A stretch of 64,000 nucleotides of DNA from Sipunculus nudus. Lineage: Eukaryota > Annelida > Sipuncula > Golfingiida > Sipunculidae. This document shows, one piece after another, positions 1,560-50,029 of this stretch. The DNA lies in contig CM049316.1 of assembly GCA_026874595.1 (NCBI GenBank), positions 16,207,839-16,271,838 of the forward strand, read 5' to 3'. The notes beneath the pieces were generated by a model. That model was not told where the DNA came from and made no database searches. It was given only the letters and a program-made list of their open reading frames with translations. Numbering within the stretch: position 1 is the stretch's first letter; each line of letters starts with the position of its first letter. Position numbers and translations under genes: made by a program.

Positions 1560-3250
1560 CAAATCTTCGTTTTGGCGGATACAAAAATACAGGTGGCTCC
1601 ACCAGTCTGAAGAAACTAATAAAAACACTTAATGGTCAATATCCATGCAAAGAATCATGGTTATCACAGCATCAGATGTTCAGATTCTTCAGCTTTTGTA
1701 TCAAATTGTCCATTATTCTGAGGGATACTTCGGAGGCCTTTAGCTTGAAGGATATGGGTAACAGAGACCTAATTTCTGGTTTCCAAGGAGATTTTTCATG
1801 GACCTCTCAGTGTGTCAAGAATTAAGATTCTAGTTCCCGTCTTTATGATTTGTGCCTTGTTAACAGATGTTCACATTTTTAAAGGTCTCATAAATAGAGA
1901 AAAAATCGTAAAAAATCGAAAAATACAGGTGGCGCCGGCAGTCTGCAGGAACTGATGGAACATCTCATGATCAATATATATGCCAAAATTCATGACCATC
2001 AGTCGAGTAGTTAATGAAATATTGAAGTTTTTGTATGGAATTTATTTACTTTTCTGGGGGGTAATTTGGAGCCCCATAGCTCAAAGGATATGGGTAACAG
2101 AGACCTAATTTCAGGTTTCCATGGAGACTTTTCATGGGTCTCCCTGTGTGTCAAGAATTAAAATTCTAGGTCCAGTTTTTATGATTTGTGCCCTGTTAAC
2201 AGATGTTCATATCTTAAAATGTCCCAAAAATAGAGAAAAAAATCGTAAAAAGACCCGAACAAATACAGGTGGCGCCACCAGTCTGCAGAAACTTATGAAA
2301 CATCTCATGATCAATACGTATGCCAAAAATCATGACCATCAGTGATGAAGTTAATGAGATATTGAAGTTTTTGTATGAAATTTTTGACTATTCGGGGGGT
2401 ACTTTGGGGCCCCATAGCACGAAGGATATAGGTAACAAAGACCTAATTTCTGGTTTCTCTGGAGAATTTTCATAGGTCTCTCAGTGTGTCGAGAATAAAG
2501 ATTCTAGGTCCAGTCGTTACGATTTGTGCCATGCACGTAACAGATGACAGCATCCTTAAAGGTCTCAAAAATAGAGGAAAAAATCGTAAAAAATCGAAAA
2601 ATAAAGGTGACGCCACCAGTCTGCAGGAACTGATGGAACATCTCATGATCAATATGTATGCCAAAAATCATGACCATCAGTCAAGTGGTTAATGAGATAT
2701 TGAAGTTTTTGTATGAATTTTTTTACTATTCTGGGGGGTACTTTGGGGCCAAATAGCTTGAAGGATATGGGTAACAGAGACCTAATTTCTGGTTTCCAAT
2801 GAGATTTTTCATGGACCTCTCAGTGTGTTAAGAATTAAGATTTTAGGTCCAGTCTTTACGATTTGTGCCTTGTTAACAGATGTTCACATTTTTAAAGCTC
2901 TCATTAATTGAAAAAAAAATTCGTAAAAAATCGAAAAATACAGGTGGCGCCACCAGTCTGCACGAAGTGATGGAACTTCTCATGATCAATATGTATGCCA
3001 AAAATCATGTCCATCAGTCAAGTAGTTAATGAGATATTGAAGTTTTTGTATGAAATTTTTGACTTTTCGGGGGGGGGGGGGTACTTTGAGGCCCCATAGC
3101 TCAAAGGATATGGGTAACAGAGACCTAATATCTGGTTTCCTAGGAGATTTTTCATGGACCTCTCAGAATCCCAAGTTACAAGGTTCTAAGTCCAGCGGTT
3201 ACGATTTGTGCCTGGTTAAAGGACGGACAGACGGACAGACAGAGTGACGA
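1560..3250. repeat. Tandem repeat B, ~337-bp unit, about 5 copies
   Basis: Units start with ACAGGTGGCGCCACCAGTCTG near 1588, 1926, 2267, 2607 and 2940. Each continues through CATCTCATGATCAATATGTA, a GGGGGGTACTTTGGGGCC tract, GGTAACAGAGACCTAATTTC, and an A-rich tail before the next palindrome. The array ends at 3225-3260 in a degenerate ACGG/ACAG microsatellite. The shared palindrome and ACGG tail link it to repeat A and to the copy at 52070. This layout (palindromic head, tandem core, ACGG-type tail) resembles the non-autonomous 'pearl'/Helentron-like elements known from bivalves; that is inference. Confidence 0.88.
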
Positions 3251-3927: not shown

Positions 3928-6626
3928 ATGCAAAGTAAGTGCTAAAATTACTAATAATTAACATTTGGATAACCTTTATATACCCCAACCACAGGCACCT
4001 TGGATGTAAATTAAAAAAAAATATCAGTAGATTTTCTAAACATAAAGGATTTGTGCATTCCCTGAGTAACCTATATATACACACAAGGCACCTATCTTCA
4101 CTCAGTACCTATCAGTACATTCCCATGCACCTCTATGTATTCATTCCCTCTGAATGAAAAGCATCATCCACAATAACCCTTCGACTCCACAAATAAAACT
4201 ACATAATTTACATACTAGTACCCCGATTCCGTCTAATCATATGACATAATTATATATAATCCACATTATTACGCACATATTATGCGCCTCCCGCTGAAAT
4301 GGCTTTTTGGCTATGCATATAAGTTACTCAGAGGATGCATAAATCGTTAATTTTAAGAAAACCTACTGCTTTATTCTGAATTTACACGTCAGGTGTTGTG
4401 GTCCAAGCAATACTTTATTATTTAGTCTGTTCCTCCACGGGCTGCCCGTTGAATTTATTATTTTTTTTTATGAAAATGCAGAAAATGTTTAAAAATCATG
4501 CTGTAATGAAGGAAAGAAATATGCAAAAAATTATATTTTAATAAGTACCTCTGATTACAATTTATTTTTCACAAAATCTGAAATAAGTTTAGTAAGGTCA
4601 AGGTCGCTTGTCACAGGAACAAAGAAACAAAAAAGAATTGCATTTACAAATCTAGTGATTTGGTGTTTAGTATCTTGAATATCCTAAGAAATATTATAAT
4701 CAAATTTAGACTGCCAGCCCATGGCAGACCAATGTCACATTGCCGCAAGCACTCGGTAGAAAAATGAGGAGAACGTCAAATATAAATAATTGGTTATTTT
4801 CATATGTATTTTTCTACCCATTTAATGCCTTAAGTCCCACATCCTCTTAAGTATAAAACGTATAATGATATTTAGATTTGATGAAATAATTGGCTAATTT
4901 CGATGGGCGCCCCTACGTTTAAAAAAACTAAAGTAAAAGTTTTTTTTTCTTCTTTTGAGTTGCTTTGCTAAAGAAGATTCGGTTTTCTCCTAAAATAAAA
5001 TATTTCAACGTGTTCTTGGCCAAGTCGGGTGGAACTGGGATTCACACAGAAATGTGTGTCCACTTTACATGCACTTATCTGTTTACACTATCTGAAATAT
5101 GTTTTCAGAATTAACCAGCGACACCTATGAGGTAACTAGAACACGAAAGTGCTGTACAGTCCTGGCCGCTGTGTTTCTCCTTACCGGTCTGACCTTCACC
5201 TTCTGGTCGCCCATTCGTCTTTCAAGTCGACCCCAACGGCTAAAATCCAGGGCAAGTTGTTTTTGTTTTCCCTGTCCACTAATACATAAAGGGTATTAAT
5301 CGTAAAATACAGTTAGAATTGTCATCATCATCACTATGTAATGTAAATATCGTTACTAACTGGCTGAGAACGTTAAATACTGATGTTTTCAAATTGCTGT
5401 TCATTATAAAGTCAGTTCATAAGAATTATTTTGTTATTGTATTATTTTGTTTCAATATAAAGGGTATGCGTATATATCTGATAAGATACAGGAATTATTT
5501 TATGACATACCATTCTGCAATTATTCGTAATTATTGCTTCCATATTCAGTAAATCACAACTGAATACTTCAGGGAGGATTTAAACATTGTTTTGCAGGTG
5601 TTTACAGATTCCGTCCAGAGACACCGGAAAGTTCAGCTTCAGACCGTGTGTAACCACAGGTTGGGTTTTCAAACGAGGAATTTCACATTTCAGGAGGACT
5701 ATTGGATTCGTGTAGATGAAAAACGAAACCTGATTTTTTGCATGATACCGAAAGTGGCGTCAATATTTTTCAGGAGGCTATTATACGGCAAATTCCATTT
5801 TAAACTGGACACGAAGCCAATCTCGAATTTTACAACTGGGAAGAGGGAAACAATGCTAAAGGAATATTTGAAAGTTATATTTGTTCGTCATCCGTTGGAC
5901 CGACTCTGGGCAGCATATATAGAAAAATTCGTCGGTTATATGCCGAAATATATATTAAAGGATGGGGTTAAGATAATCCAACGTTATCGGGATAACCCAG
6001 ATGATAAGACCAGCAGCTGCGCGCATGACGTCACGTTTTCAGAGTTCGTTCGTTACATCGTTGATAATGAACAAATCGGAATTGCCCATGATCACCATTG
6101 GCTACCATATTATAATTTATGCAAACCTTGCGAGATTAAATATGATATAATTGGAAAACTTAAAACTTTAAGAAGTGATCTGAAAACACTCCGTTTACAT
6201 ACGGAAATACCAGAAGTCCCTTTGCACGAAGACTTGAAATACATCTTCGACGCCCGCTGTAGGGAATTTTATCACAGAGGTCCTCATATCGAAGGATGCA
6301 CAAACATACAGGATACATTTATCAGACGTTGGAAAGCTTGGAAGTACGCAGGACTTGTAGATCCCATGGCGCCTCTACCTCCTATCCCAAAGTATCTTAA
6401 GACGCAGCCTGAACGGGGATCTTTATGGAAACGTTTCTGTGTGGAAACGATAAGGAGAGAATATAGTAGAGTAAAAAATATTACAATATTTAGGAAGTTG
6501 ATAGCACAGAGAAAAGAAAGAGTGAAAATTAAAGCTTTCAGTGCAATAAGTGAAGATATTAAAAGAAATTTAATTGAAATATACCGTTTCGACATGTCAT
6601 TATTTGGATACGAACAATACGTTTAA
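3928..6626 (+). CDS. Carbohydrate sulfotransferase, HNK-1 family (Sulfotransfer_2)
   Basis: Modelled exons are 3928-3934, 5109-5251 and 5598-6626, giving 392 aa. The protein would be a type II Golgi membrane enzyme moving sulfate from PAPS to a glycan. It has a short cytosolic tail, a signal anchor near residues 20-37 (CCTVLAAVFLLTGLTFTFW), a 5'-phosphosulfate loop at about 98-112 (CMIPKVASIFFRRLL), a 3'-phosphate motif at about 145-161 (FVRHPLDRLWAAYIEKF) and the family's C-terminal YRFDMSLFGYE. Length fits CHST8-14-type enzymes. The start is ATG-CAA-A before GTAAGTGC at 3935, joined in phase to 5109. An ATG at 5099 lies within the acceptor and is less likely. Intron 2 (5252-5597) appears to be GC-AG: AGG|GCAAGT joins in frame, while a GT site at 5290 does not. 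The acceptor-substrate glycan cannot be told. The loop lacks the Cys/Thr common in relatives. Confidence is high for the family and moderate for the first exon. Confidence 0.88.
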
Positions 6627-14332: not shown

Positions 14333-17300
14333 CTGTGGTGTCACAGGTAAAGTACAAGAAGTATTAAACATATGCAAGATGCTCACATAATTGTGCTTTT
14401 GCTAAAATAATCAGAATAAGAATCAGAAAATAATCCCACATAATTCTATTTGTCCAACATCTGTTACTTCAAAACAACAGCATAGAAGCATGCAGTTTTA
14501 ATGTAAAGATATCCATGATGAACATATTCAGAAAAAAAAAAATAAAGGATGCATATTGCATGCAAATGAACATTAGAGCTAGTTAAATAAATTAATTGAA
14601 ATAATACAATTATTTTAATTACACGTGGAATTAAACGTGGGATAACATACAAAGAAAAATATCATGATGTACTTATATATCCATTTCTCTGCATTATGAA
14701 CAACTTGCACACGGAATATGAGAAGATTCTGCATCGAATAAACCTACACCTGACGGGTATTTTATAGATTCAGCTTACCTCGCACCGAGCCGATGGCCCA
14801 TTTGTAGTCAACTATTTCACTCTCTGGGTCCGTAAACTTCCATGACGCTACGACGTAGCCCTTCCCTTCATTAGACAAAGGAATAATCTCTACATATATA
14901 CCGTTACTGGTTTTATTGTTATCTTGGTGTTGAAGCGCCACCACTGTGACGTCATCAAGAAGGTATGGCTTGGCCTCGTCTGTGTTTGTAAAGGTCAGGG
15001 TAATTGGAACGCTCGGGGTAACTCGTGTGAAATATATGTGCCGCTGCCAGGTAGCAGCCGTTGCTGTGGTAACAAACGTATGACTTGAACTTCCGATTGT
15101 CACATGACCGACAGTTTCCTGTTGGTTCCCCGTGCCGTTATTCCCTGAATGTCTTGGGTCTGTCAGCGTCCAAAATGTTAGTCTCACCAGGTCTGAGTTT
15201 GCTACGTTTACGTCTTGTCTAATTGAACCATCGACCAACATTGAATGGCTGCCGCTCTTGGAAGCGCCCGCATAGATCTCGCCATGTCCGTCACAGGCCC
15301 AGTTGAGTGAAGCAGGGTCTGCTTCAAATGACCCGTCGAGGATCAAACTGGAGCCGCTGGTCCAGGAGTCAGCTGGTTCCGGGGATGTCAGGTCGACTGT
15401 CACACCATCACTTAAAGCAACATCTGACACATGACCAGCTGAATCCACGGCCTGCACGCGGGCATAGTAGGTCTGACCTGTAAAATGCATATGAAATTAA
15501 CAATGGATCACCAGAGTTATATTCTTACAGAAATCCAGATAATTAAATTACCGCGTGTTATTTAAAATTACATTTTGCTGGTTAACAACGTAGGAGCTTA
15601 AATAAAACCCGTAAAAGTAAATAGTTTCAAGTATACCGAGCAACGGCATTAGTTCCGGATATTGCCCAAACGCCGTGGCAATAAAGAATAATCAAATAAA
15701 ACCCGACGTTCACGGATGTCAAGGTTACATCAAAATACAATCTGAACAGCAGTAGGTATTTTGATAATAAAGTCACTCTTAAGACGTGTAAACGTGTCTC
15801 CTTCACCATTATTAATTTTTTTATTTCATTCTTTTGAGCATTTCGTTTTGTATAATATCATATTATATTATATTAAACTATTTGAAACTCACCATGTAAA
15901 AGGCCGTTGTGTGGTGTCAGCTGGGATTCGAGCTTAGCACCAACATTCGTACAAGGGAAGACGTCCTGCCCGCCGGGCGCGGTTCCTGCGCACACTATAT
16001 AATGATGGACAGCAGACTGTTGATCATAAAACCCGTGCCATGATACCTGTAACGCCGTGTTGTCATGCCGGTACGTGTCATCACGTAGGGAGTGACCGTC
16101 CTTGACAACAGCTGACGTGGCGTCAGGTGCCGTAACGTCAACCTGCCATTAAACCATAAGGAATATGAAAAAATACAAACAGGATGGAACATTTAAAATA
16201 AGTATATATAAATGTTAGTACAATGGGTTATTCCTCCTAAGTAAGTTTATAAATTCATTGAAAGCATTTACTGTATTATTTTAGATAATTAGCTACTTGT
16301 ATATTTACTGATAGCAGGTAGAGTATAGAAGGAAAACTCTCTATCCGATCTGACAACAAAGCAAATACGTTGAAAATAAATTCTTGTACACCAGATAATC
16401 ATAACAAAATTAGAATAAGTGAATGTGATCATTGTAAGATCAACTGTTCAAATTGTTATGCATCGAGGTAATTTCTCCTTTGAATAATCTTTAATAATTA
16501 CCTGTTAGATTATTACCTAAATACCTATTTACTTAAAATAGGCATATCCTAACAAGAAAAACAATCCATTATTCACGTTTCCAATATAAATATAGTGAAA
16601 ATAAAATATTGAAAGTCAGATAAACATAATACACACGAATACACCTACCTGAAATTCGTCAGACTGAGTGATGGCCGTGAACCCTGCCTGGTTCTACACT
16701 GCCTGAAATCCGTCAGACTGAGCGATGGCCGTGAACCCTGCCTGGTTCTACACCTGCCTGAAATCCGTCAGACTGAGCGATGGCCGTGAACCCTGCCTGG
16801 TTCTACACCTGCCTGAAATCCGTCAGACTGAGCGATGGCCGTGAACCCTGCCTTGTTCTACACCTGCCTGAAATCCGTCAGACTGAGCGATGGCCGTGAA
16901 CCCTGCCTGGTTCTACACCTGCCTGAAATCCGTCAGACTGAGTGATGGCCGTGAACCCTGCCTGGTTCTACACCTGCCTGAAATCCGTCAGACTGAGTGA
17001 TGGCCGTGAACCCTGCCTGGTTCTACACCTGCCTGAAATCCGTCAGACTGAGCGATGGCCGTGAACCCTGCCTGGTTCTACACCTGCCTGAAATCCGTCA
17101 GACTGAGCGATGGCCGTGAACCCTGCCTTGTTCTACACCTGCCTGAAATCCGTCAGACTGAGCGATGGCCGTGAACCCTGCCTGGTTCTACACCTGCCTG
17201 AAATCCGTCAGACTGAGCGATGGCCGTGAACCCTGCCTGGTTATACACTTACATGAAATCCGTCAGACTGAGCGATGGCCGTGAGCCCTGCCTTGTTGTA

Positions 17301-20300
17301 CACCTGCCTGAAATCCGTCAGACTGAGCGATGGCCGTGAACCCTGCCTGGTTCTACACCTGCCTGAAATCGGTCAGACTGAGCGATGGCCGTGAACCCTG
17401 CTTTGTTCTACACCTGCCCGAAATCCGTCAGACTGATCGATGGCCGTGAACCCTGCCTGGTTCTACACCTGCCTGAAATCCGTCAGAATGAGCGATGGCC
17501 GTGCAACCTGCCTGGTTCTACACCTGCCTGAAATCCGTCAGACTGAGCGATGGCCGTGAACCCTGCCTGGTTCTACACTTACCTGAAATCCGTCAGACTG
17601 AGCGATGGCCGTGAGCCCTGCCTTGTTCTACACCTGCCTGAAATCCGTCAGACTGAGCGATGGCCGTGAACCCTGCCTTGTTCTACACCTGCCCGAAATC
17701 CGTCAAACTGAGCGATGGCCGTGAACCCTGCCTTGTTCTACACCTGCCTGAAATCCGTCAGACTGAGCGATGGCCGTGAACCCTGCCTGGTTCTACACCT
17801 GCCTGAAATCCGTCAGACTGAGCGATGGCCGTGAACCCTGCCTGGTTCTACACCTGCCTGAAATCCGTCAGACTGAGCGATGGCCGTGAACCCTGCCTGG
17901 TTCTACACCTGCCTGAAATCGGTCAGACTGAGCGATGGCCGTGAACCCTGCCTGGTTCTACACCTGCCTGAAATCGGTCAGACTGAGCGATGGCCGTGAA
18001 GCCTGCCTGGTTCTACACCTGCCTGAAATCCGTCAGACTGAGCGATGGCCGTGAACCCTGCCTGGTTCTACACCTGCCTGAAATCCGTCAGACTGAGCGA
18101 TGGCCGTGCACCCTGCCTGGTTCTACACCTGCCTGAAATCCGTCAGACTGAGCGATGGCCGTGCACCCTGCCTGGTTCTACACCTGCCTGAAATCCGTCA
18201 GACTGAGCGAAGGCCGTGAACCCTGCCTGGTTCTACACCTGCCTGAAATCCGTCAGACTGAGCGATGGCCGTGGACCCTGCCTGGTTCTACACCTGCCTG
18301 AAATCCGTCAGACTGAGCGATGGCCGTGAAACCTGCCTGGTTCTACACCTGCCTGAAATCCGTCAGACTGAGCGATGGCCGTGAACCCTGCCTGGTTCTA
18401 CACTGCCTGAAATCCGTCAGACTGAGCGATGGCCGTGAACCCTGCCTGGTTCTACACTGCCTGAAATCCGTCAGACTGAGCGATGGCCGTGAACCCTGCC
18501 TTGTTCTACACCTGCCTGAAATCCGTCAGACTGAGTGATGGCCGTGAACCCTGCCTGGTTCTACACCTGCCTGAAATCCGTCAGACTGAGTGATGGCCGT
18601 GAACCCTGCCTGATTCTACACCTGCCTGAAATCCGTCAGACTGAGGGATGGCCGTGAACCCTGCCTGGTTCTACACCTGCCTGAAATCCGTCAGACTGAG
18701 GGATGGCGGTGAACCCTGCCTGGTTCTACACCTGCCTGAAATCCGTGAGACGGAGCGATGGCCGTGAACCCTGCCTGGTTCTACACCTGCCTGAAATCCG
18801 ACAGACTGAGCGATGGCCGTGAACCCTGCCTGGTTCTACACCTGCCTGAAATCCGTCAGACTGAGCGATGGTCGTGAACCCTGCCTGGTTCTACACCTGC
18901 CTGAAATCCGTCGATTGAGCGATGGCCGTGAACCCTGCCTGGTTCTACACCTGCCCGAAATCCGTCAGACTGAGCGATGGCCGTGAACCCTGCCTCGTTC
19001 TACACCTGCCCGAAATCCGTCAGACTGAGCGATGGCCTTGAACCCTGCCTCGTTCTACACCTGCCCGAAATCCGTCAGACTGAGCGATGGCCGTGAACCC
19101 TGCCTGGTTCTACACCTGCTTGAAATCCGTCAGACTGAGCGATGGCCGTGAACCCTGCCTGGTTCTACACCTGCCTGAAATCCGTCAGACTGAGCGATGG
19201 CCGTGAACCCTGCCTGGTTCTACACCTGCCTGAAATCCGTCAGACTGAGCGATGGCCGTGAACCCTGCCTGGTTCTACACCTGCCTGAAATCCGTCAGAC
19301 TGAGCGATGGCCGTGAACCCTGCCTACTTCTACACCTGCCTGAAATCCGTCAGACTGAGCGATGGCCGTGAACCCTGCCTACTTCTACACCTGCCTGAAA
19401 TCCGTCAGACTGAGCGATGGCCGTGAATCCTGCCTGGTTCTACACCTGCCTGAAATCCGTCAGACTGAGCGATGGCCGTGAACCCTGCCTGGTTCTACAC
19501 CTGCCTGAAATCCGTCAGACTGAGCGATGGCCGTGAGCCCTGCCTGGTTGTACACCTACCTGAAATCCGTCAGACTGAGCGATGGCCGTGAGCCCTGCCT
19601 GGTTCTACACCTGCCTGAAATCCGTCAGACTGAGCGATGGCCGTGAACCCTGCCTTGTTCTACACCTGCCCGAAATCCGTCAGACTGAGCGATGGCCGTG
19701 AGCCCTGCCTCGTTCTACACCTGCCTGAAATCCGTCAGACTGAGCGATGGCCGTGAAACCTGCCTCGTTGTACACCTGCCCGAAATCCGTCAGACTGAGC
19801 GATGGCCGTGAACCCTGCCTGGTTCTAAACCTGCCTGAAATCGGTCAGACTGAGTGATGGCCGTGAACCCTGCCTGGTTCTACACCTGCCTGAAATCCGT
19901 CAGACTGAGCGATGGCCGTGAACCCTGCCTGGTTCTACACCTGCCTGAAATCCGTCAGACTGAGCGATGGCCGTGAACCCTGCCTGGTTCTACACCTGCC
20001 TGAAATCCGTCAGACTGAGTGATGGCCGTGAACCCTACCTGGTTCTACACCTGCCTGAAATCCGTCAGACTGAGCGATGGCCGTGAACCCTGCCTGGTTA
20101 TACACTTACCTGAAATCCGTCAGACTGAGCGATGGCCGTGAGCCCTGCCTGGTTGTACACCTACCTGAAATCCGTCAGACTGAGCGATGGCCGTGAGCCC
20201 TGCCTGGTTCTACACCTGCCTGAAATCCGTCAGACTGAGCGATGGCCGTGAACCCTGCCTTGTTCTACACCTGCCCGAAATCCGTCAGACTGAGCGATGG

Positions 20301-23300
20301 CCGTGAGCCCTGCCTCGTTCTACACCTGCCTGAAATCCGTCAGACTGAGCGATGTCCGTGAACCCTGCCTGGTTCTACACCTGCCTGAAATCCGTCAGAC
20401 TGAGCGATGTCCGTGAACCCTGCCTGGTTCTACACCTGCCTGAAATCCGTCAGACTGAGCGATGGCCGTGAACCCTGCCTCGTTCTACACCTGCCTGAAA
20501 TCCGTCAGACTGAGCGATGGCCGTGAACCCTGCCTGGTTCTACACCTGCCTGAAATCCGTCAGACTGAGTGATGGCCGTGAACCCTGCCTGGTTCTACAC
20601 CTGCCTGAAATCCGTCAGACTGAGCGATGGCCGTGAACCCTGCCTGGTTCTACACCTGCCTGAAATCCGTCAGACTGAGGGATGGCCGTGAACCCTGCCT
20701 GGTTCTACACCTGCCTGAAATCCGTGAGACTGAGCGATGGCCGTGAACCCTGCCTGGTTCTACACCTGCCTGAAATCCGACAGACTGAGCGATGGCCGTG
20801 AACCCTGCCTGGTTCTACACCTGCCTGAAATCCGTCAGACTGAGCGATGGTCGTGAACCCTGCCTGGTTCTACACCTGCCTGAAATCCGTCGATTGAGCG
20901 ATGGCCGTGAACCCTGCCTGGTTCTACACCTGCCCGAAATCCGTCAGACTGAGCGATGGCCGTGAACCCTGCCTCGTTCTACACCTGCCGGAAATCCGTC
21001 AGACTGAGCGATGGCCTTGAACCCTGCCTCGTTCTACACCTGCCCGAAATCCGTCAGACTGAGCGATGGCTGTGAACCCTGCCTGGTTCTACACCTGCTT
21101 GAAATCCGTCAGACTGAGCGATGTCCGTGAACCCTGCCTGGTTCTACACCTGCCTGAAATCCGTCAGACTGAGCGATGGCCGTGAACCCTGCCTGGTTCT
21201 ACACCTGCCTGAAATCCGTCAGACTGAGCGATGGCCGTGAACCCTGCCTCGTTCTACACCTGCCCGAAATCCGTCAGACTGAGCGATGGCCGTGAACCCT
21301 GCCTCGTTCTACACCTGCCTGAAATCCGTCAGACTGAGCGATGGCCGTGAACCCTGCCTAGTTCTACACCTGCCTGAAATCCGTCAGACTGAGCGATGGC
21401 CGTGAACCCTGCCTGGTTCTACACCTGCCTGAAATCCGTCAGACTGAGCGATGGCCGTGAACCCTGCCTGGTTCTACACCTGCCTGAAATCCGTCAGACT
21501 GAGTGATGGCCGTGAACCCTGCCTGGTTCTACACCTGCCTGAAATCCGTCAGACTGAGCGATGGCCGTGAACCCTGCCTGGTTCTACACCTGCCTGAAAT
21601 CCGTCAGACTGAGGGATGGCCGTGAACCCTGCCTGGTTCTACACCTGCCTGAAATCCGTGAGACTGAGCGATGGCCGTGAACCCTGCCTGGTTCTACACC
21701 TGCCTGAAATCCGACAGACTGAGCGATGGCCGTGAACCCTGCCTGGTTCTACACCTGCCTGAAATCCGTCAGACTGAGCGATGGTCGTGAACCCTGCCTG
21801 GTTCTACACCTGCCTGAAATCCGTCGATTGAGCGATGGCCGTGAACCCTGCCTGGTTCTACACCTGCCCGAAATCCGTCAGACTGAGCGATGGCCGTGAA
21901 CCCTGCCTCGTTCTACACCTGCCCGAAATCCGTCAGACTGAGCGATGGCCTTGAACCCTGCCTCGTTCTACACCTGCCCGAAATCCGTCAGACTGAGCGA
22001 TGGCCGTGAACCCTGCCTGGTTCTACACCTGCTTGAAATCCGTCAGACTGAGCGATGGCCGTGAACCCTGCCTGGTTCTACACCTGCCTGAAATCCGTCA
22101 GACTGAGCGATGGCCGTGAACCCTGCCTGGTTCTACACCTGCCTGAAATCCGTCAGACTGAGCGATGGCCGTGAACCCTGCCTGGTTCTACACCTGCCCG
22201 AAATCCGTCAGACTGAGCGATGGCCGTGACCCTGCCTCGTTCTACACCTGCCTGAAATCCGTCAGACTGAGCGATGGCCGTGAACCCTGCCTAGTTCTAC
22301 ACCTGCCCGAAATCCGTCAGACTGAGCGATGGCCGTGAACCCTGCCTGGTTCTACACCTGCCCGAAATCCGTCAGACTGAGCGATGTCCGTGAACCCTGC
22401 CTGGTTCTACACCTGCCTGAAATCCGTCAGACTGAGCGATGGCCGTGAACCCTGCCTGGTTCTACACCTGCCTGAAATCCGTCAGACTGAGCGATGGCCG
22501 TGAACCCTGCCTGGTTCTACACCTGCCTGAAATCCGTCAGACTGAGCGATGGCCGTGAACCCTGCCTGGTTCTACACCTGCCTGAAATCCGTCAGACCGA
22601 GCGATGGCCGTGAACCCTGCCTGGTTCTACACCTGCCTGAAATCCGTCAGACTGAGCGATGGCCGTGAACCCTGCCTGGTTCTACACCTGCCTGAAATCC
22701 GTCAGACTGAGCGATGCCCGTGAACCCTGCCTGGTTCTACACCTGCCTGAAATCCGTCAGACTGAGCGATGGCCGTGAGCCCTGCCTGGTTCTACACCTG
22801 CCTGAAATCCGTCAGACTGAGCGATGGCCGTGAACCCTGCCTGGTTCTACACCTGCCTGAAATCCGTCAGACTGAGCGATGGCCGTGAACCCTGCTTGGT
22901 TCTACACCTGTCTGAAATCGGTCAGACTGAGCGATGGCCGTGAACCCTGCCTGGTTCTACACCTGCCTGAAATCCGTCAGACTGAGCGATGGCCTTGAAC
23001 CCTGCCTGGTTCTACACCTGCCTGAAATCCGTCAGACTGAGCGATGGCCGTGAACCCTGCCTGGTTCTACACCTGCCTGAAATCCGTGAGACTGAGCGAT
23101 GGCCGTGAACCCTGCCTGGTTCTACACCTGCCTGAAATCGGTCAGACTGAGCGATGGCCGTGAACCCTGCCTGGTTCTACACCTGCCTGAAATCCGTCAG
23201 ACTGAGCGATGGCCGTGAACCCTGCCTGGTTCTACACCTGCCTGAAATCGGTCAGACTGAGTGATGGCCGTGAACCCTGCCTCGTTCTACACCTGCCTGA

Positions 23301-26300
23301 AATCCGTCAGACTGAGTGATGGCCGTGAACCCTGCCTGGTTCTACACCTGCCTGAAATCCGTCAGACTGAGCGATGGCCGTGAACCCTGCCTTGTTCTAC
23401 ACCTGCCCGAAATCCGTCAGACTGAGCGATGGCCGTGAACCCTGCCTCGTTCTACACCTGCCTGAAATCCGTCAGACTGAGCGATGGCCGTGAACCCTGC
23501 CTAGTTCTACACCTGCCTGAAATCCGTCAGACTGAGCGATGGCCGTGAACCCTGCCTGGTTCTACACCTGCCTGAAATCCGTCAGACTGAGCGATGGCCG
23601 TGAACCCTGCCTGGTTCTACACCTGCCTGAAATCCGTCAGACTGAGTGATGGCCGTGAACCCTGCCTGGTTCTACACCTGCCTGAAATCCGTCAGACTGA
23701 GCGATGGCCGTGAACCCTGCCTGATTCTACACCTGCCTGAAATCCGTCAGACTGAGTGATGGCCGTGAACCCTGCCTGGTTCTACACCTGCCTGAAATCC
23801 GTCAGACTGAGCGATGGCCGTGAACCCTGCCTGGTTCTACACCTGCCTGAAATCCGACAGACTGAGCGATGGCCGTGAACCCTGCCTGGTTCTACACCTG
23901 CTTGAAATCCGTCAGACTGAGCGATGGCCGTGAACCCTGCCTGGTTCTACACCTGCCTGAAATCCGTCAGACTGAGCGATGGCCGTGAACCCTGCCTGGT
24001 TCTACACCTGCCTGAAATCCGTCAGACTGAGCGATGGCCGTGAACCCTGCCTTGTTCTACACCTGCCCGAAATCCGTCAGACTGAGCGATGGCCGTGAAC
24101 CCTGCCTCGTTCTACACCTGCCTGAAATCCGTCAGACTGAGCGATGGCCGTGAACCCTGCCTAGTTCTACACCTGCCTGAAATCGGTCAGACTGAGCGAT
24201 GGCCGTGAACCCTGCCTGGTTCTACACCTGCCTGAAATCCGTCAGACTGAGCGATGGCCGTGAACCCTGCCTGGTTCTACACCTGCCTGAAATCGGTCAG
24301 ACTGAGTGATGGCCGTGAACCCTGCCTCGTTCTACACCTGCCTGAAATCCGTCAGACTGAGTGATGGCCGTGAACCCTGCCTGGTTCTACACCTGCCTGA
24401 AATCCGTCAGACTGAGCGATGGCCGTGAACCCTGCCTTGTTCTACACCTGCCCGAAATCCGTCAGACTGAGCGATGGCCGTGAACCCTGCCTCGTTCTAC
24501 ACCTGCCTGAAATCCGTCAGACTGAGCGATGGCCGTGAACCCTGCCTAGTTCTACACCTGCCTGAAATCCGTCAGACTGAGCGATGGCCGTGAACCCTGC
24601 CTGGTTCTACACCTGCCTGAAATCCGTCAGACTGAGCGATGGCCGTGAACCCTGCCTGGTTCTACACCTGCCTGAAATCCGTCAGACTGAGTGATGGCCG
24701 TGAACCCTGCCTGGTTCTACACCTGCCTGAAATCCGTCAGACTGAGCGATGGCCGTGAACCCTGCCTGATTCTACACCTGCCTGAAATCCGTCAGACTGA
24801 GTGATGGCCGTGAACCCTGCCTGGTTCTACACCTGCCTGAAATCCGTCAGACTGAGCGATGGCCGTGAACCCTGCCTGGTTCTACACCTGCCTGAAATCC
24901 GACAGACTGAGCGATGGCCGTGAACCCTGCCTGGTTCTACACCTGCCTGAAATCCGTCAGACTGAGCGATGGTCGTGAACCCTGCCTGGTTCTACACCTG
25001 CCTGAAATCCGTCGATTGAGCGATGGCCGTGAACCCTGCCTGGTTCTACACCTGCCCGAAATCCGTCAGACTGAGCGATGGCCGTGAACCCTGCCTCGTT
25101 CTACACCTGCCCGAAATCCGTCAGACTGAGCGATGGCCTTGAACCCTGCCTCGTTCTACACCTGCCCGAAATCCGTCAGACTGAGCGATGGCCGTGAACC
25201 CTGCCTGGTTCTACACCTGCTTGAAATCCGTCAGACTGAGCGATGGCCGTGAACCCTGCCTGGTTCTACACCTGCCTGAAATCCGTCAGACTGAGCGATG
25301 GCCGTGAACCCTGCCTGGTTCTACACCTGCCTGAAATCCGTCAGACTGAGCGATGGCCGTGAACCCTGCCTTGTTCTACACCTGCCCGAAATCCGTCAGA
25401 CTGAGCGATGGCCGTGAACCCTGCCTCGTTCTACACCTGCCTGAAATCCGTCAGACTGAGCGATGGCCGTGAACCCTGCCTAGTTCTACACCTGCCCGAA
25501 ATCCGTCAGACTGAGCGATGGCCGTGAACCCTGCCTGGTTCTACACCTGCCTGAAATCCGTCAGACTGAGCGATGTCCGTGAACCCTGCCTGGTTCTACA
25601 CCTGCCTGAAATCCGTCAGACTGAGCGATGGCCGTGAACCCTGCCTGGTTCTACACCTGCCTGAAATCGGTCAGACTGAGCGATGTCCGTGAACCCTGCC
25701 TGGTTCTACACCTGCCTGAAATCCGTCAGACTGAGCGATGGCCGTGAACCCTGCCTGGTTCTACACCTGCCTGAAATCCGTCAGACTGAGCGATGGCCGT
25801 GAACCCTGCCTGGTTCTACACCTGCCTGAAATCCGTCAGACTGAGCGATGGCCGTGAACCCTGCCTGGTTCTACACCTGCCTGAAATCCGTCAGACTGAG
25901 CGATGGCCGTGAACCCTGCCTGGTTCTACACCTGCCTGAAATCGGTCAGACTGAGCGATGGCCGTGAACCCTGCCTCGTTCTACACCTGCCTGAAATCCG
26001 TCAGACTGAGTGATGGCCGTGAACCCTGCCTGGTTCTACACCTGCCTGAAATCCGTCAGACTGAGCGATGGCCGTGAACCCTGCCTGGTTCTACACCTGC
26101 CTGAAATCCGTCAGACTGAGCGATGGCCGTGAACCCTGCCTGGTTCTACACCTGCCTGAAATCCGTCAGACTGAGCGATGGCCGTGAAACCTGCCTCGTT
26201 GTACACCTGCCCGAAATCCGTCAGACTGAGCGATGGCCGTGAACCCTGCCTGGTTCTAAACCTGCCTGAAATCGGTCAGACTGAGTGATGGCCGTGAACC

Positions 26301-29300
26301 CTGCCTGGTTCTACACCTGCCTGAAATCCGTCAGACTGAGCGATGGCCATGAACCCTGCCTGGTTCTACACTTGCCTGAAATCCGTCAGACTGAGCGATG
26401 GCCTTGAACCCTGCCTCGTTCTACACCTGCCTGAAATCCGTCAGACTGAGTGATGGCCGTGAACCCTACCTGGTTCTACACCTGCCTGAAATCCGTCAGA
26501 CTGAGCGATGGCCGTGGACCCTGCCTGGTTATACACTTACCTGAAATCCGTCAGACTGAGCGATGGCCGTGAGCCCTGCCTGGTTGTACACCTACCTGAA
26601 ATCCGTCAGCCTGAGCGATGGCCGTGAGCCCTGCCTGGTTATACGCCACTAGGGTCGTGAAGTAGTTTAATCCCTCATTCAGGTTGAGTCCGCCCACGTT
26701 AGCCTCCGTCACGTGACCATCGTACTCGCGCTCAGTGACGTCAGATCCTCCGGCATGGCGACCAATGGACAGTTTAAACTTCGTTAAATTGGTGTCAGGT
26801 TCCATAAACACACCTCTCCATGATATATTGACTGAGGTCAGATCAGTTATGACATCAGTATCGAAAGGGGATTCCAATATTTTCACTTCTTTCGGTAGTT
26901 TGGACCGTGACACTGTGGGTGGTGTAGCGTCCACGAGTACCCCATCTGAAGTGAACACAGCCACCTCTTTTTCTGTGTACCAAGCTCGTACGTGGAAGAT
27001 GTACTCCACTCTTGGTATTAGTGGACCTAGAAAAATCCAAAGTCACTAATTATAGACAACCTTATAAGTACTGTCAACATATATGTACCGCTTTGTTAAT
27101 ATTTGCATTATCTAAATTTTTTTTATAAGTTTGAGTACATTTTAAAGTTGTTTAGTGCCTTAGAGGAAACGTTCAAAGCACCTCCTCGTGTTTCTTGCGA
27201 GAAAATATATGATGTAGAAAACATATTGAAATTGGACTGTAAAACCTTATATAAAAAGACGGCTTGACATTATCATTGTGATAGATATTTTCATTGTATA
27301 TCTTACAATGGCGAAAATTATAAAATACATGTTGTAGTAATGCGTGTTTCAAATGAATCTTGACAGCTGTTATTTAGTTTGGAGCGAAAGATGTGCATAA
27401 AAATAAAATTACCATTCTGAGGCTTAATAATGAAAACGGCCCACGTTTGATTCCCGTTATCAGTCCAGATGGGATCATTCTGTAAATCCAGTACGCCTGT
27501 CCCGGGGGTTTCTCCTTTCTGGCTGACGGACCATTCATATCTGTGGGGCACAGCACCTGATCCTGTAGTGTACCAAGAGGCCGCCAGAGTGCACTGGCTG
27601 TATGTGAAGTCTATGTCTTCGTAAACTTCATGTGTACTAGTCACATGCGTATCCAAGACGACCACGGACGTGAAACCAGTGGCTCCTTGAAATAAACAAT
27701 AGTTAGTTGTACATAAATACATCTCTTTTGAATCCCTAATACTCTGTTTCCAAGTCGTTTACTTGGTCCTTTGCGGATTCTGGCGCCACATACATAGTAA
27801 GTAATGTGTTTCAGTTCTGTAGCCGAGTAGGCACTGTATACTACTCTTACATTAAGCTTTGTAGAAATATAGCCTATAGCCGTCTAACAAACACAACATG
27901 GTATCAATCTGTTTGAAACTGGGCATTGTATAAATTGAATAAATAAAGAAATGCATTCACGTGTGAATTGATTTATTGCTTAGAGTTATAGATTAAGTCT
28001 TACATAAACAAGGTTGAAATTTGTAACAATCATATACACTCATGTTTAGACAAGTTTTTCATCTAATTACAAGTGAGTATACTGGACTACAAGACTAAAG
28101 TAGATATAAACATCAGGAAAATCGCATTCACTTGTAACGTCGACACACTGCCTGTCGTGAGCGCAGGTCTGGTCCTGAGGTGCACAGGTACAATGACCCT
28201 CACACGACCGAGCTGTACACTGCCTGACCAGCTCCAGGATACCGCCGGTAGGTGATGACGTCACTGCCAGGAACGTGCCGTGTAATCTGCGGCTCTGCAG
28301 GCCAACCTTGGTAATAAAATAAATAGTGTCATTTCTGTCGAGTCAACTTTTCAAGAGCATAAATATAAATAATTGTTCCGATGTCAATTTACAGTAAACT
28401 ATCTCTACAAAATTTTACTTTCATTAGGCCAAAAAAATAAAAGGTATGGTTCTCAGGCATCACCCGCGTCAATTTCAACCCCCCCCCCCCCCCAGCCCGC
28501 ATAAAAAAAAAAAATATATTTTGATTTTCATCTTTCAAGAAGATAAAATAATACAATTTTGATATGATTTCCTTTGCTTTCACTTGTTTAGCAAAAAAAA
28601 AAAAAAAACAATTTGTTATTTTCATGCTTTTCCCTTATCATTTAACATTTTTATCAAAATATACACAAAAATAAAAATTAAGAAATCCGCGAGCCCGCAT
28701 TGATTCCTGAAAAAAAGTGCCTGAGAACCAAACCTTATTTTGTTTTTGGCCTTAAAATTCTTTTAAAAACTTTATCTTAATTCGTGTATTAAGAGAAACC
28801 ATGTATGTTAAGAGAAACCATAAGATATTATCCATTAACTATCCCCTACTTATTATCCTCGATCGAATTAAGTAAACTGATTGCAGATCCCCTGATAATT
28901 GATTTCAACAATGACACGGACGTGTGTTATTTCGAACAGGCAACGGGAAAAGGGTCCTGGAAAGACTATTACAAAAACTTTTTTTTTACGTCTGACGCTA
29001 ATACATACGTATCCTGAACGAGACATGTAATTCATCAGTTGATTTTATTGGATATTTAAGAAAGTGTTAGGAACCAACGTCCAACAAATCAGAGAATGGC
29101 AGTGATAGACCCTTACTGCGTTTTCGGCCCACACGGCCACGTAGATGTTCTCCCCAGGGACCACCGGTCTCGACAGAGTGACGTCTACCTTTTGGATATC
29201 GCCTTCGTCCCGGTGAGACTCTCCCGAAGTATGGTTCGCCTCTTTTGCGCCTTCCTAGAATAACATTGGTTATCATCTCATTTAAGACCGCATTATCTAT

Positions 29301-49579: not shown

Positions 49580-50029
49580 AGAATCGAAAAACAGTCTTTG
49601 AACGACATTACCTCTGAGCTACCGGTAATCTGTAAACGTCTCTTATCTATATGTCCATAAGAATAAATTAGACTAATTTTGGATTGAATAAAACTTACCA
49701 TATTGGCAGCATTGTCCGTAATGCTCGTTCCTGCAGTAGCATTTATTGTAGCCAGGCGATCCACCATTTCTACATTTGTCACGGTTGCAGTCCCTAGACC
49801 TGCTGCTTGAACCAGAACAATCGTTACCACAATCGTTTTTATCGGGATCTTTATAGCGGCTGCTGGATTGCGTTCCGGAGTGTCCACATGCATGGTTGCA
49901 GGAGCTCCAAGAGCCCCAGTTACTCCATTTACAGTGTCTTGGATCGCAACCCCAAAACAGAAAAGACTCCCCCGGATCAGCAGTCCAAGCGATGACCACA
50001 GCAACCGCCAACCAGCAGGCCGGATTCAT
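11423..50029 (-). CDS. Giant secreted TSP1/EGF/fibronectin-III-like protein, 51 exons
   Basis: I rebuilt 51 coding exons from GT/AG borders and conserved reading frame. All junctions keep phase and the sum is 10,050 nt, giving 3,349 aa. The order is: signal peptide, thrombospondin type 1 module, Cys-rich and EGF-like exons, then many fibronectin-III-like modules. These show W-x-G-F-x-D-x-E-S-G, Y-x-x-x-I-G, Y-x-V-T-V-x-A-x-N-x-A-G-L and S-D-G-x-x-V-D-x-T-P-P, the last seen about a dozen times. A second Cys-rich exon (41) and a jelly-roll domain (exon 45) interrupt the series. There is no C-terminal membrane segment or GPI signal, so an extracellular matrix or secreted adhesion role is inferred. 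I know of no named orthologue; comparable tandem FN3-like proteins occur in marine invertebrates. Exon coordinates are in the segment entries below. The main risk is a wrong choice between nearby splice sites, such as at exon 14. Confidence 0.87.
14113..14134. repeat. (TAA)n microsatellite next to exon 46
   Basis: Seven TAA units lie 8 bases downstream of the exon 46 donor. Confidence 0.9.
14779..16142 (-). CDS. Exons 44-45: FN3-like module plus jelly-roll (galactose-binding-like) domain
   Basis: Exons 15893-16142 and 14779-15477; residues about 2668-2983. Exon 45 (699 nt) is the longest of the gene. After LSDGVTVDLTSPEPAD it carries about 135 residues that match the plan of galactose-binding-like/CBM jelly-rolls: LILDGSFEAD at the start, W in the middle, GSHSMLVDGSIRQDVNV, WQRHIYF and YLLDDVTVV at the end. 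The FN3 frame then resumes with WKFTDPESEIVDYKWAIGS. A carbohydrate-binding function is inferred from fold pattern only. Confidence 0.85.
16639..26640. repeat. 55-bp minisatellite of exon end plus 5' splice site, ~180 copies
   Basis: About 10.0 kb of head-to-tail 55-bp units fill intron 43 of the minus-strand gene. On the minus strand each unit is 45 nt encoding NQAGFTAIAQSDGFQ, the last 15 codons of exon 43 with small changes, followed by 10 nt of intron start, usually GCAGGTGTAG. Thus each copy carries a 5' splice site, mostly the GC form; GT forms occur at both array ends and at a few interior units (near 16648, 17250, 17580, 19558, 20108, 20162, 26540 and 26595). Copies are mostly over 90% alike by eye. 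A few units are 53 or 54 bp. Shared marker variants show that blocks of many units were copied within the array. The unit length is not a multiple of 3 and reading through meets a stop in the next unit, so the array is not an extended coding exon. Confidence 0.96.
26596..27685 (-). CDS. Exons 42-43: FN3-like modules ending at the minisatellite
   Basis: Exons 27413-27685 and 26596-27026; residues about 2433-2667. Exon 43 has TSDGVLVDATPPTVS, WRGVFMEPDTNLTKFKLSIG and YNQAGLTAIAQADGFQ. It ends TTTCAG|GTAGGTG at 26595. Reading past this donor gives a stop within the next repeat unit, and exon 44 opens with V-D-V-T-A-P-D, which completes the motif exactly. The last 45 nt of this exon are the seed of the 55-bp array in the following intron. 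Confidence 0.9.
28132..28306 (-). CDS. Exon 41: Cys-rich EGF-like module within the FN3 series
   Basis: Residues about 2375-2432. The exon reads CTARSCEGHCTCAPQDQTC followed by a further Cys, a six-Cys pattern with spacing 4-3-1-6-5 that looks like a small EGF- or disulfide-knot-type module. It opens in phase 0 with VGLQSRRLHGTFLAVTSSP, the end of an FN3-like strand. The donor is ACAA|GTGAAT at 28131. Confidence 0.8.
28427..28751. mobile_element. MITE copy 1 (GGCCAAAAA ends), intron 40
   Basis: A ~325-bp element with ends GGCCAAAAAAATAAAAGGTA and (inverted) TTATTTTGTTTTTGGCC, followed inwards by GGTTCTCAGGCA at both ends. TTA flanks both sides, as in PIF/Harbinger target duplications. The interior is AT-rich with a C15 tract and no open frame for a transposase. 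Confidence 0.75.
29117..35450 (-). CDS. Exons 27-40: regular FN3-like modules
   Basis: Exons 35235-35450, 34676-34781, 34412-34528, 33873-34040, 33536-33678, 33150-33278, 32531-32669, 31964-32150, 31255-31463, 30951-31063, 30593-30712, 30259-30387, 29660-29863 and 29117-29254; residues about 1669-2374. Modules show VHWNGFSD, VTIDTTSPEVTG, WHGLFHDPESG, FIIDTTPPSGGFVLDGP, WDGFHDAESGLSHYVVSVG, VSDGMTPDVSPPVIG, ISDGFIIDTSPP and VDSSPPRPG. One module is usually split over two or three exons, with a phase-0 intron near the V-D-x-T-P-P segment. Confidence 0.87.
31152..31191. repeat. (AT)n microsatellite, intron 35
   Basis: About 19 AT units, in the intron below exon 35. Confidence 0.95.
35755..41077 (-). 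CDS. Exons 17-26: divergent FN3-like modules
   Basis: Exons 40862-41077, 39745-39910, 39160-39443, 38761-38952, 38183-38318, 37610-37784, 37214-37346, 36828-37088, 36368-36561 and 35755-35986; residues about 1006-1668. Clear module signals are WHGADEESHIAKYEIGFS and HLRARNKAGLYTSQ (exon 17), HDHGPPISGLVREVLAGG (exon 19), FSDGYQV (exon 24) and VLMVRGVNKVGLAATAE (exon 25). Exons 21-23 and 26 are less regular, with more Trp, Arg and His, and may have lost the consensus. Confidence 0.83.
39990..40140. mobile_element. Degenerate copy of the GGATCCAGG-type element, intron 17
   Basis: CAGCGGATTTGGAGG at the left and AAAATCCTGGATAACC at the right form imperfect inverted ends, with the core GCTGCAACCGTTTTAAA shared with the copies at 9000 and 10600. 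Confidence 0.45.
41370..42570. repeat. Dispersed repeats in intron 16 (two related copies)
   Basis: Segments 41370-41660 and 42290-42570 share GGTTTCGGAGAAGAA / AGTTTCGGAGAAGAA, a tract around AAAATCTAAG/AAAATCGAAG, TTTTTGAGATAGC / TTTCTGAGATAGC and a closing GACGGACGAC. Between them, 42116-42240 holds GTAGGTGGCGACACC and GCCGTTTCTGAGAT. They belong to the same loose family as the palindromic arrays at the left end of the window. The intron contains no exon that I can see. Confidence 0.6.
41733..41808. repeat. Short array of GTGTCTAGAC palindromes
   Basis: About 75 bases hold eight TCTAGA hexamers arranged as overlapping GTCTAGAC units, including TGTCTAGACGTCTAGACACA, alternating in an ACAGACGTCTAGAC pattern. 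The segment could fold into several hairpins. It lies in intron 16. Confidence 0.85.
42597..44831 (-). CDS. Exons 11-16: FN3-like modules with a Cys-rich insert
   Basis: Exons 44623-44831, 44291-44405, 43970-44161, 43546-43815, 42878-43152 and 42597-42741; residues about 604-1005. Motifs include VHVDSTPPEVD (exon 11), a short Cys cluster CHAPECACVAAMETC (exon 13), VTVDASPPHAGVVKD and WEGFFDKESGVMFYRYGF (exon 14), and CSDGVVVDISPP (exon 15). Exon 14 has two phase-0 donors: GTG|GTAATG near 43612 and AAG|GTTTAAGG at 43545. I took the second because it keeps residues that fit the module. Confidence 0.83.
42802..42866. repeat. (GT)n(GA)n microsatellite beside exon 15
   Basis: A GT run followed by about 25 GA units ends 11 bases from the exon 15 donor; long open frames through it are simple-repeat artefacts. 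Confidence 0.95.
44980..47853 (-). CDS. Exons 4-10: first FN3-like modules
   Basis: Exons 47714-47853, 47490-47601, 47242-47368, 46596-46815, 45969-46137, 45434-45615 and 44980-45240; residues about 200-603. Recognisable FN3-like pieces include LVGLRDGISDYKIIECAAKE (exon 4), WNGWSDYPSGIEDYELIVYA (exon 8) and GMYCFVLSADDKAGNHRYAR (exon 9). Exon 6 ends GCAGATGT|GTTAGT; I chose this over the GTATCA site six bases downstream because only it meets exon 7 in phase. Confidence 0.85.
47031..47116. repeat. (AT)n microsatellite, intron 6
   Basis: More than 35 AT units with a few TAAATA interruptions at the left edge. Confidence 0.95.
48137..49002 (-). CDS. Exons 2-3: Cys-rich and EGF-like modules
   Basis: Exons 48856-49002 and 48137-48256, residues about 111-199. 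Exon 2 carries CKRLYCTSSSNHRCDEC and continues into an R/K-rich end. Exon 3 reads CSWRPDSRYCYPGTC then CKCAEGYGTENQNC, a six-Cys pattern (spacing 8-4-7-1-10) typical of a small EGF-like domain. Both introns are phase 1, the usual phase for shuffled EGF modules. The exon 3 donor is ACTA|GTATGG. Confidence 0.85.
48440..48775. mobile_element. Possible inverted-repeat element with poly-G tracts, intron 2
   Basis: CAGTGGCGTCAATTTA at the left and TTAAATTGACCATTCCCCCC at the right are imperfectly inverted, with G-runs just inside both ends and AT-rich sequence between. This is a weak case: target duplications are not clear. Confidence 0.35.
49168..49498. mobile_element. MITE copy 2 (GGCCAAAAA ends), intron 1
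   Basis: Ends GGCCAAAATAAAAAAAAGGT and (inverted) ATACCTTTTTTTTGGC, each with GGTTCTCAGGCA just inside. The interior TTTTATCTTCTTGAAAGA matches copy 1 (28427-28751) in the opposite orientation. The flanks read TAA, with one end base changed. No coding capacity. Confidence 0.72.
49523..49577. repeat. (AT)n microsatellite, intron 1
   Basis: About 26 AT units right after MITE copy 2, at 49523-49577. Confidence 0.95.
49699..50029 (-). CDS. Exon 1: signal peptide and thrombospondin type 1 module
   Basis: Residues 1-110 of the giant protein. The start is the ATG at 50029-50027. A hydrophobic leader (MNPACWLAVAVVIAWTA) is followed by CKWSNWGSWSSCNHACG, the W-x-x-W-x-x-C-S-type opening of a TSP1 repeat. 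A run of six further Cys, rich in Asp, Ser and Arg, follows and ends in CRNEHYGQCCQYG. The donor is ATG|GTAAGTTT at 49698. The exon ends in phase 1. Confidence 0.9.

Follow-up and report, generated by a model that had tools for sequence, protein, structure and literature searches.

Structure and coordinates of the array

A stretch of 64,000 nucleotides from the genome of Sipunculus nudus (GenBank assembly GCA_026874595.1, contig CM049316.1, positions 16,207,839 to 16,271,838), referred to below as the window and numbered from its first base, contains a minisatellite that repeats the end of a coding exon together with the adjoining 5' splice site. The array is probably a giant, mostly neutral minisatellite of the mirage type, a term used in amphioxus for minisatellites over exon-intron borders, which have received little study. 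The first donor site would still serve the gene, with a possible low-level leak of splicing at the second unit.

Tandem Repeats Finder (TRF) detected a single array of period 55 at positions 16640–26644, with 182.1 copies, 96% matches and a score of 18463. A wrap-around alignment resolved it into 182 units over 10,002 bp, which follow the minus strand, with unit 1 beginning at 26640 and unit 182 ending at 16639. The consensus unit consists of AACCAGGCAGGGTTCACGGCCATCGCTCAGTCTGACGGATTTCAG followed by GCAGGTGTAG, with the exon end located between the two. Each unit comprises 45 exon-derived bases (15 codons, NQAGFTAIAQSDGFQ) and 10 intron-derived bases. The original prediction, an earlier reading of the same DNA, had described about 180 units of 55 bp with 15 exon codons and 10 intron bases, and the alignment bore this out at the same coordinates.

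Unit 1 (26586–26640) contains the exon end and the presumed true donor, CAG GTAGGT, with its GT at 26595. Unit 2 (26531–26585) reads CAG GTAAGT at the corresponding position (GT at 26540) and is the strongest nearby competitor. It is followed by 115 consecutive units (units 3–117, 20210–26530) that lack GT at the donor position and have GC instead, apart from AC in unit 68. In the remaining part of the array (units 118–182, 16639–20209) GT donors are found in units 118, 119, 129, 165, 171 and the terminal unit 182. The tetranucleotide GTAT is present on both sides of the array, in the exon at 26641–26644 and at the far array end at 16639–16642. These two copies may represent the microhomology at which the array was born.

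The array is built from 61 distinct unit types, whose order is structured and includes block duplications, for example units 32–45, which equal units 51–64, and units 87–95, which equal units 104–112. Unit 119 is identical to unit 2, and units 118 and 129 match unit 1 except for one base each, so that edge-type units have been copied inward. Units 1, 2 and 182 depart from the interior consensus. The interior has been homogenised with the edges excluded, although not strictly, as the edge-type units 118, 119 and 129 lie inside. We also considered whether a short true array had been inflated by mis-assembly. The length of the array and its 96% uniformity would fit such an artefact, but the structured order of the 61 unit types and the preserved edge states make it very improbable.

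The core of the unit was searched against the genome to which the window belongs (1.43 Gb, 1,427 Mb, 153 contigs). All 112 matches to an exact 25-mer core were located in the window, with no copy elsewhere, and so were all 178 matches to a 28-mer core with up to 3 mismatches, again with no copy elsewhere at this sensitivity. The original prediction had named the occurrence of the array at unrelated loci as a check on its reading; at up to 3 mismatches the core is confined to the window. An independent satellite that happens to sit in the intron was rejected, since no copy of the core lies outside the window (at up to 3 mismatches) and its register is fixed by the exon border. A coding repeat was rejected as well: no reading frame of the intronic array stays open for more than 73 codons on the plus strand or 60 on the minus strand, and the unit length of 55 cannot be divided by 3.

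Host exon, intron and paralogues

The array adjoins a coding exon of 431 bp on the minus strand (26596–27026, numbered 43 in the original prediction), for which both the acceptor and the donor were located. It starts in phase 1, ends in phase 0 and is FN3-like; its match to the Pfam family fn3 (E = 7.6e-5) is under the Pfam cut-off. The intron that follows measures 10,453 bp; the array accounts for 9,957 bp of this length, and the other 496 bp (16143–16638, minus strand) lie outside it. The next coding exon, beginning with VDVTAPDATSAVV, is located at 15893–16142 on the same strand and starts in phase 0.

A search with the exon protein against its own genome gave 12 matches including the exon itself, and nine of the 11 others span nearly the whole exon, with near-equal extent. 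All nine paralogous exons stop at the codon aligned to the final one here, and GT follows directly. A similar next exon follows in each of the nine, 126–431 bp past the donor. The paralogue introns, measured to the start of this exon, therefore have a length of 126–431 bp, and they end in AG. A 55-bp array is absent from the TRF listing in the 10 kb past each of the nine paralogue exons. Since the nine introns are short and free of such an array, we conclude that the intron was of ordinary size before the array expanded it.

These comparisons bear on two claims of the original prediction. The true exon end had been placed at 26596, which agrees with all nine paralogous exons and with the phase 0 start of the next exon. 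A tandem duplication across the exon-intron border had been proposed as the source of the repeat; it is well supported by the nine paralogue borders and short introns and by the GTAT at both ends.

The exon-derived part of the units has changed relative to the exon. A Leu codon of unit 1 is kept in all nine paralogues and is changed in 170 of the 182 units; the array consensus encodes Phe at a position at which the exon and the nine paralogues have Leu. Among the variant types in the exon part, 9 are synonymous and 29 nonsynonymous, compared to 30 and 105 possible ones. There is, therefore, no sign of coding constraint, as for untranslated copies.

Two observations concern individual paralogues. 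One of them (L010, C6:2815735-2816154) has an in-frame TGA and is possibly a pseudogene. The intron of another (L017) contains four copies of an unrelated 44-bp unit, which start about 27 bases past the donor and lie wholly beyond the exon end.

Donor sites in the array

Over the 182 units, the donor dinucleotide is GT in 8 (units 1, 2, 118, 119, 129, 165, 171 and 182), GC in 173 and AC in one. The most frequent site, CAG GCAGGT, is present in 137 units. We scored these sites with a human position weight matrix and computed the U1 pairing energies alongside. On this human matrix the true donor reached 10.1 bits, unit 2 reached 12.7 bits and the common GC site 3.5 bits. The predicted U1 pairing energies were -13.7, -14.0 and -9.0 kcal/mol, respectively. 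The nine paralogue donors ranged from 3.4 to 8.2 bits and from -4.1 to -8.1 kcal/mol; the weakest of them on the matrix (3.4 bits) thus scores under the common GC site. Judged by predicted U1 pairing alone, the GC sites would not be negligible. Close to the true donor there is one strong competitor, namely unit 2.

For comparison we used four clean blocks of 9,947 bp each. Sites of at least 6 bits were fewer in the array intron (10) than in the clean blocks (22, 21, 27 and 16). Sites of at least 4 bits were in excess (181 vs 68, 57, 72 and 55), because a weak site recurs in every unit. The claim of about 180 decoy donors in a row, made in the original prediction, fails for GT donors: the structure of the array stands, but canonical donors are found in only 8 of the 182 units.

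Reading through the exon end at 26596 leads to an in-frame TGA at 26553–26551 on the minus strand, inside unit 2. Any later donor would therefore give a premature stop, as the original prediction had stated for donors beyond the first.

In every unit a donor-like site directly follows an AG (TTTCAG GYAGGT), and the terminal unit 182 reads TTTCAG GTAGGT, as at the exon end. Recursive splicing would make use of this arrangement: if unit 1 were joined to one of the later GT units, a donor would be restored and the 10-kb intron would be shortened stepwise. However, the stretch in front of the AG (GTCTGACGGATTTCAG) looks to the eye like a poor pyrimidine tract and 173 units lack GT, and we consider this route hardly credible.

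Proposed origin of the array and possible effect on splicing

Based on these observations we propose the following course of events. A 55-bp segment covering the exon end and the first 10 intron bases would have been duplicated in tandem, perhaps via the GTAT microhomology. The early copies would have grown by block duplication and homogenisation to 182 units, and the intron, at first about 0.5 kb long, would have reached 10.45 kb. Exon and donor are intact in the copy that adjoins the exon, so that normal mRNA would still be possible; for the same reason the array would persist as a mostly neutral passenger. The spread of a GC-bearing unit in place of GT, driven by selection or resulting from a founder effect, would have removed most of the downstream canonical donors. 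Unit 2 would leak at a low level, and the resulting transcript would be cleared by nonsense-mediated decay.

Several points weigh against this neutral reading. The consensus of unit 2 is better than that of the true donor, and on this account splicing at unit 2 may conceivably be substantial. Neutrality is also not automatic, since two downstream repeat units of human IFI6 are used as donors according to the relevant passages of PMC4526556. GT may have been lost from the 173 units in one event that was then spread by copying, so that this loss tells little about selection. Furthermore, the common GC site is predicted to pair with U1 more strongly than all nine paralogue donors, and sites that score at least as high as the true donor number 6 in the array intron vs 1, 2, 0 and 0 in the clean blocks.

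The last two points would also favor the view of the original prediction, according to which the array is a regulatory decoy whose many donor-like sites sequester U1 or tune splicing. The CAG GCAGGT site of 137 units, the six intronic sites at true-donor strength and the 140 GC sites of consensus quality (vs 0, 0, 1 and 0 in the clean blocks) are consistent with it. On the other hand, GC occupies the donor position in 173 of 182 units, units 3–117 are without GT, and sites of at least 6 bits are fewer than in any clean block (10 vs 16–27). Weak contacts with U1 may thus occur at the GC sites, as judged from the predicted pairing, whereas a strong canonical sponge is not seen. Taken as a whole, we regard a regulatory decoy as improbable.

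A second alternative concerns a single copy, not 180, and is compatible with the mostly neutral array outlined above. Here, unit 2 would be a genuine alternative donor: a considerable part of the transcripts would take the CAG GTAAGT located 55 bp downstream, gain the stop at 26553 and be degraded, which would lower the output of the gene. The superior matrix score and U1 pairing energy of unit 2 and the donors in IFI6 repeat units (PMC4526556) argue for such a role. Against it, amphioxus mirages with AG/GT copies are reported, in the passages concerned of PMC3087553 and PMC3902484, not to disturb splicing. We consider a sizeable use of unit 2 rather unlikely, though less so than a decoy function, and favor the first donor as the one that serves the gene.

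Almost exclusive use of the first donor, in spite of a better one 55 bp away and of further copies over 10 kb, would make the locus a natural test of the choice that the splicing machinery makes among near-identical donors. It would also be a case of a short intron that grew twenty-fold without breaking its gene.

Other arrays at exon borders in the genome

We searched the genome for three AGGTRAGT sites spaced by 37–67 or by 7–37 bases and used the reversed octamer as a control. The donor pattern gave 2,107 matches at the wider and 1,418 at the narrower spacing; the reversed octamer gave 1,380 and 635, respectively. As a single octamer, AGGTRAGT is not more common than its reverse (79,657 vs 99,233). 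The triple-donor counts are not array-level statistics and do not provide a valid enrichment test, as a few big arrays dominate the rows (the listed control rows belong to 3 arrays); for this reason we claim the existence of a class, not of a hotspot. Both patterns miss arrays like the one in the window.

Among the matches listed (C1, C2 and the start of C3) there were 34 other distinct arrays. The 5' flank of each of these donor-pattern arrays was inspected, and they were sorted by our own, non-blind reading of sequence and frames. In fifteen of the 34 the first unit is located where an open coding exon ends, and the later units resemble the last 15–59 exon bases and the start of the intron. 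Two others begin at a donor that little exon precedes (L064, L085), and one is ambiguous (L086). No exon was seen at nine (C1:1041372, L058, L060, L061, L070, L071, L073, L074, L088), and seven were left unsorted because they overran the sequence examined (L066, L067, L069, L075, L076, L077, L082).

The peptides of all 15 border exons were compared with Pfam and five of them with PDB sequences. Eight of the 15 gained protein-family support, and the other seven rest on the open frame and the repeat alignment. Pfam matches were obtained for ABC_membrane (4.5e-6, just below the cut-off), PI3_PI4_kinase (7.7e-9), MIP (1.6e-12) and LRR_8 (1.3e-12). At an E-value of 0.001 Pfam gave nothing for the remaining 11 of the 15. 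The PDB sequences matched were those of PKA RI-alpha (1.1e-25), cysteine-rich intestinal protein (9.9e-7), aromatic amino acid decarboxylase (3.6e-5) and, weakly, SKAP55 (9.6e-4). The same search gave nothing for the exons of L081 and L086.

A codon-usage test of the 75 nt before the arrays was underpowered. It scored 27 arrays (the seven unsorted ones were dropped), with three below 0.05, none below 0.01 and a Fisher combined p of 1.1e-4. The test was trained on 6.1 kb, its background includes parts of the window, and the start points of 18 arrays were set by us. It also failed singly on exons with clear Pfam matches, for example L065 (0.15) and L087 (0.37).

In seven of the 15 border arrays (L057, L059, L065, L068, L079, L084, L087) a stop precedes the second donor, given the exon frame that we set. 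The unit length is a multiple of 3 in seven of the 15, for instance 30 bp in L068; compared to an expectation of one third (p = 0.28), no frame bias is shown either way.

For the 15 listed arrays, our reading of the flanks supports the view that exon ends in this genome repeatedly seeded minisatellites. The listings cover about 226 Mb with 13 border arrays and about 118 Mb with 3 (one of them shared) out of 1,427 Mb, and rough scaling suggests a number of the order of a hundred. We therefore put forward, tentatively and at somewhat less than even confidence, that minisatellites arise recurrently at 5' splice-site borders genome-wide. Genes with mirages at exon ends, tolerated through use of the nearest donor, may number of the order of a hundred, and mirages could then be a general way in which introns grow and splice sites evolve, not a few isolated cases in amphioxus. 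The 182-unit array would then be an extreme case in which most downstream donors have been disabled. With the further border arrays of the genome, mirages would no longer be scattered cases but would become open to statistical survey, which bears on how introns grow and are gained.

Two of the listed arrays show individual features. L056 (C2:8512622) is a border array with a 42-bp unit that follows an exon with an ABC transporter match; the frame stays open over the readable 38 bases past the first donor, and the copies could in principle be translated. The array at C1:1041372-1045959 consists of 58-bp units, most of them with AGGTAAGT, and no visible exon adjoins it.

Other features of the window

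Searches of the window with Rfam (at gathering thresholds) and for tRNA gave no match. Of ten other frames in the window, only two had Pfam matches. A single open frame on the plus strand (5553–6623) encodes 357 amino acids and matches Sulfotransfer_2 with an E-value of 9.9e-38. Of the four database matches to its protein, just one carries a name, a carbohydrate sulfotransferase 14-like protein from a crab that is 34% identical over 29% of the query. A thrombospondin type 1 frame is located on the minus strand at 49676–50035 (Pfam TSP_1, E = 1.3e-6); its position suggests that it may be an early exon of the large gene that contains the 55-bp array. Two further arrays, at 1–1305 and 1694–3219, have unit lengths of 278 and 338 bp, respectively, and arrays with similar periods of 277 and 336 bp are found near the paralogue L017.

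Comparison with known systems

A minisatellite in IFI6 that gives the transcript several donor sites was reportedly described by Turri et al. 1995, as far as the title tells. In the passages of PMC4526556 on the human IFI6 gene (6-16, G1P3), two downstream repeat units are used as donors. In the array of the window, by comparison, the later donors would add a stop if they were used.

Internal tandem repeats at exon-intron boundaries are also described for human segmental duplications, where they can alter splicing (PMC2812944). According to the parts of that source which deal with them, they average 30-bp units, 4 copies and 160 bp, and the cases at boundaries are linked to new introns. The Rogers model, as cited in the relevant passage of PMC3087553, explains intron gain by duplication across AG/GT. 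It resembles the present array in the AG that is followed by a donor-like site in each unit, and because of this arrangement the units could seed new introns or exons. The difference is that an existing intron has been enlarged here and no new one is shown.

The open-literature matches listed, outside of which most subscription journals fall, included neither mirages under that name from outside amphioxus nor a genome-wide mirage survey. The closest relatives of the array are the amphioxus mirages themselves. They were described over exon-intron borders of Adh3 and of the globins BflGb6 and BflGb9 (PMC3087553) and also of TnC and PGBD5 (PMC3902484). In the mirage passages of both papers, AG/GT is present in many but not all copies, the interior of the clusters is homogenised with the cluster boundaries excluded, and regular splicing is said not to be disturbed. 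The description in PMC3087553 further includes length and somatic instability and a cephalochordate host.

The array of the window shares with them a unit that spans the exon-intron border (45 + 10 bases, at a border common to all nine paralogues), the authentic border kept at the array edge (unit 1, GT at 26595) and, less strictly, the homogenised interior with excluded edges. It differs in the state of its donors, as many amphioxus copies keep AG/GT in the passages cited, whereas here GT is present in 8 of 182 units and GC in 95%. It differs also in size: where these passages give numbers, amphioxus mirages have 2–7 units of 10–160 bp, compared to 182 units of 55 bp and about 10 kb here. As judged from its sequence, the array is a mirage by structure, of a size not described in the mirage passages of PMC3087553 and PMC3902484.

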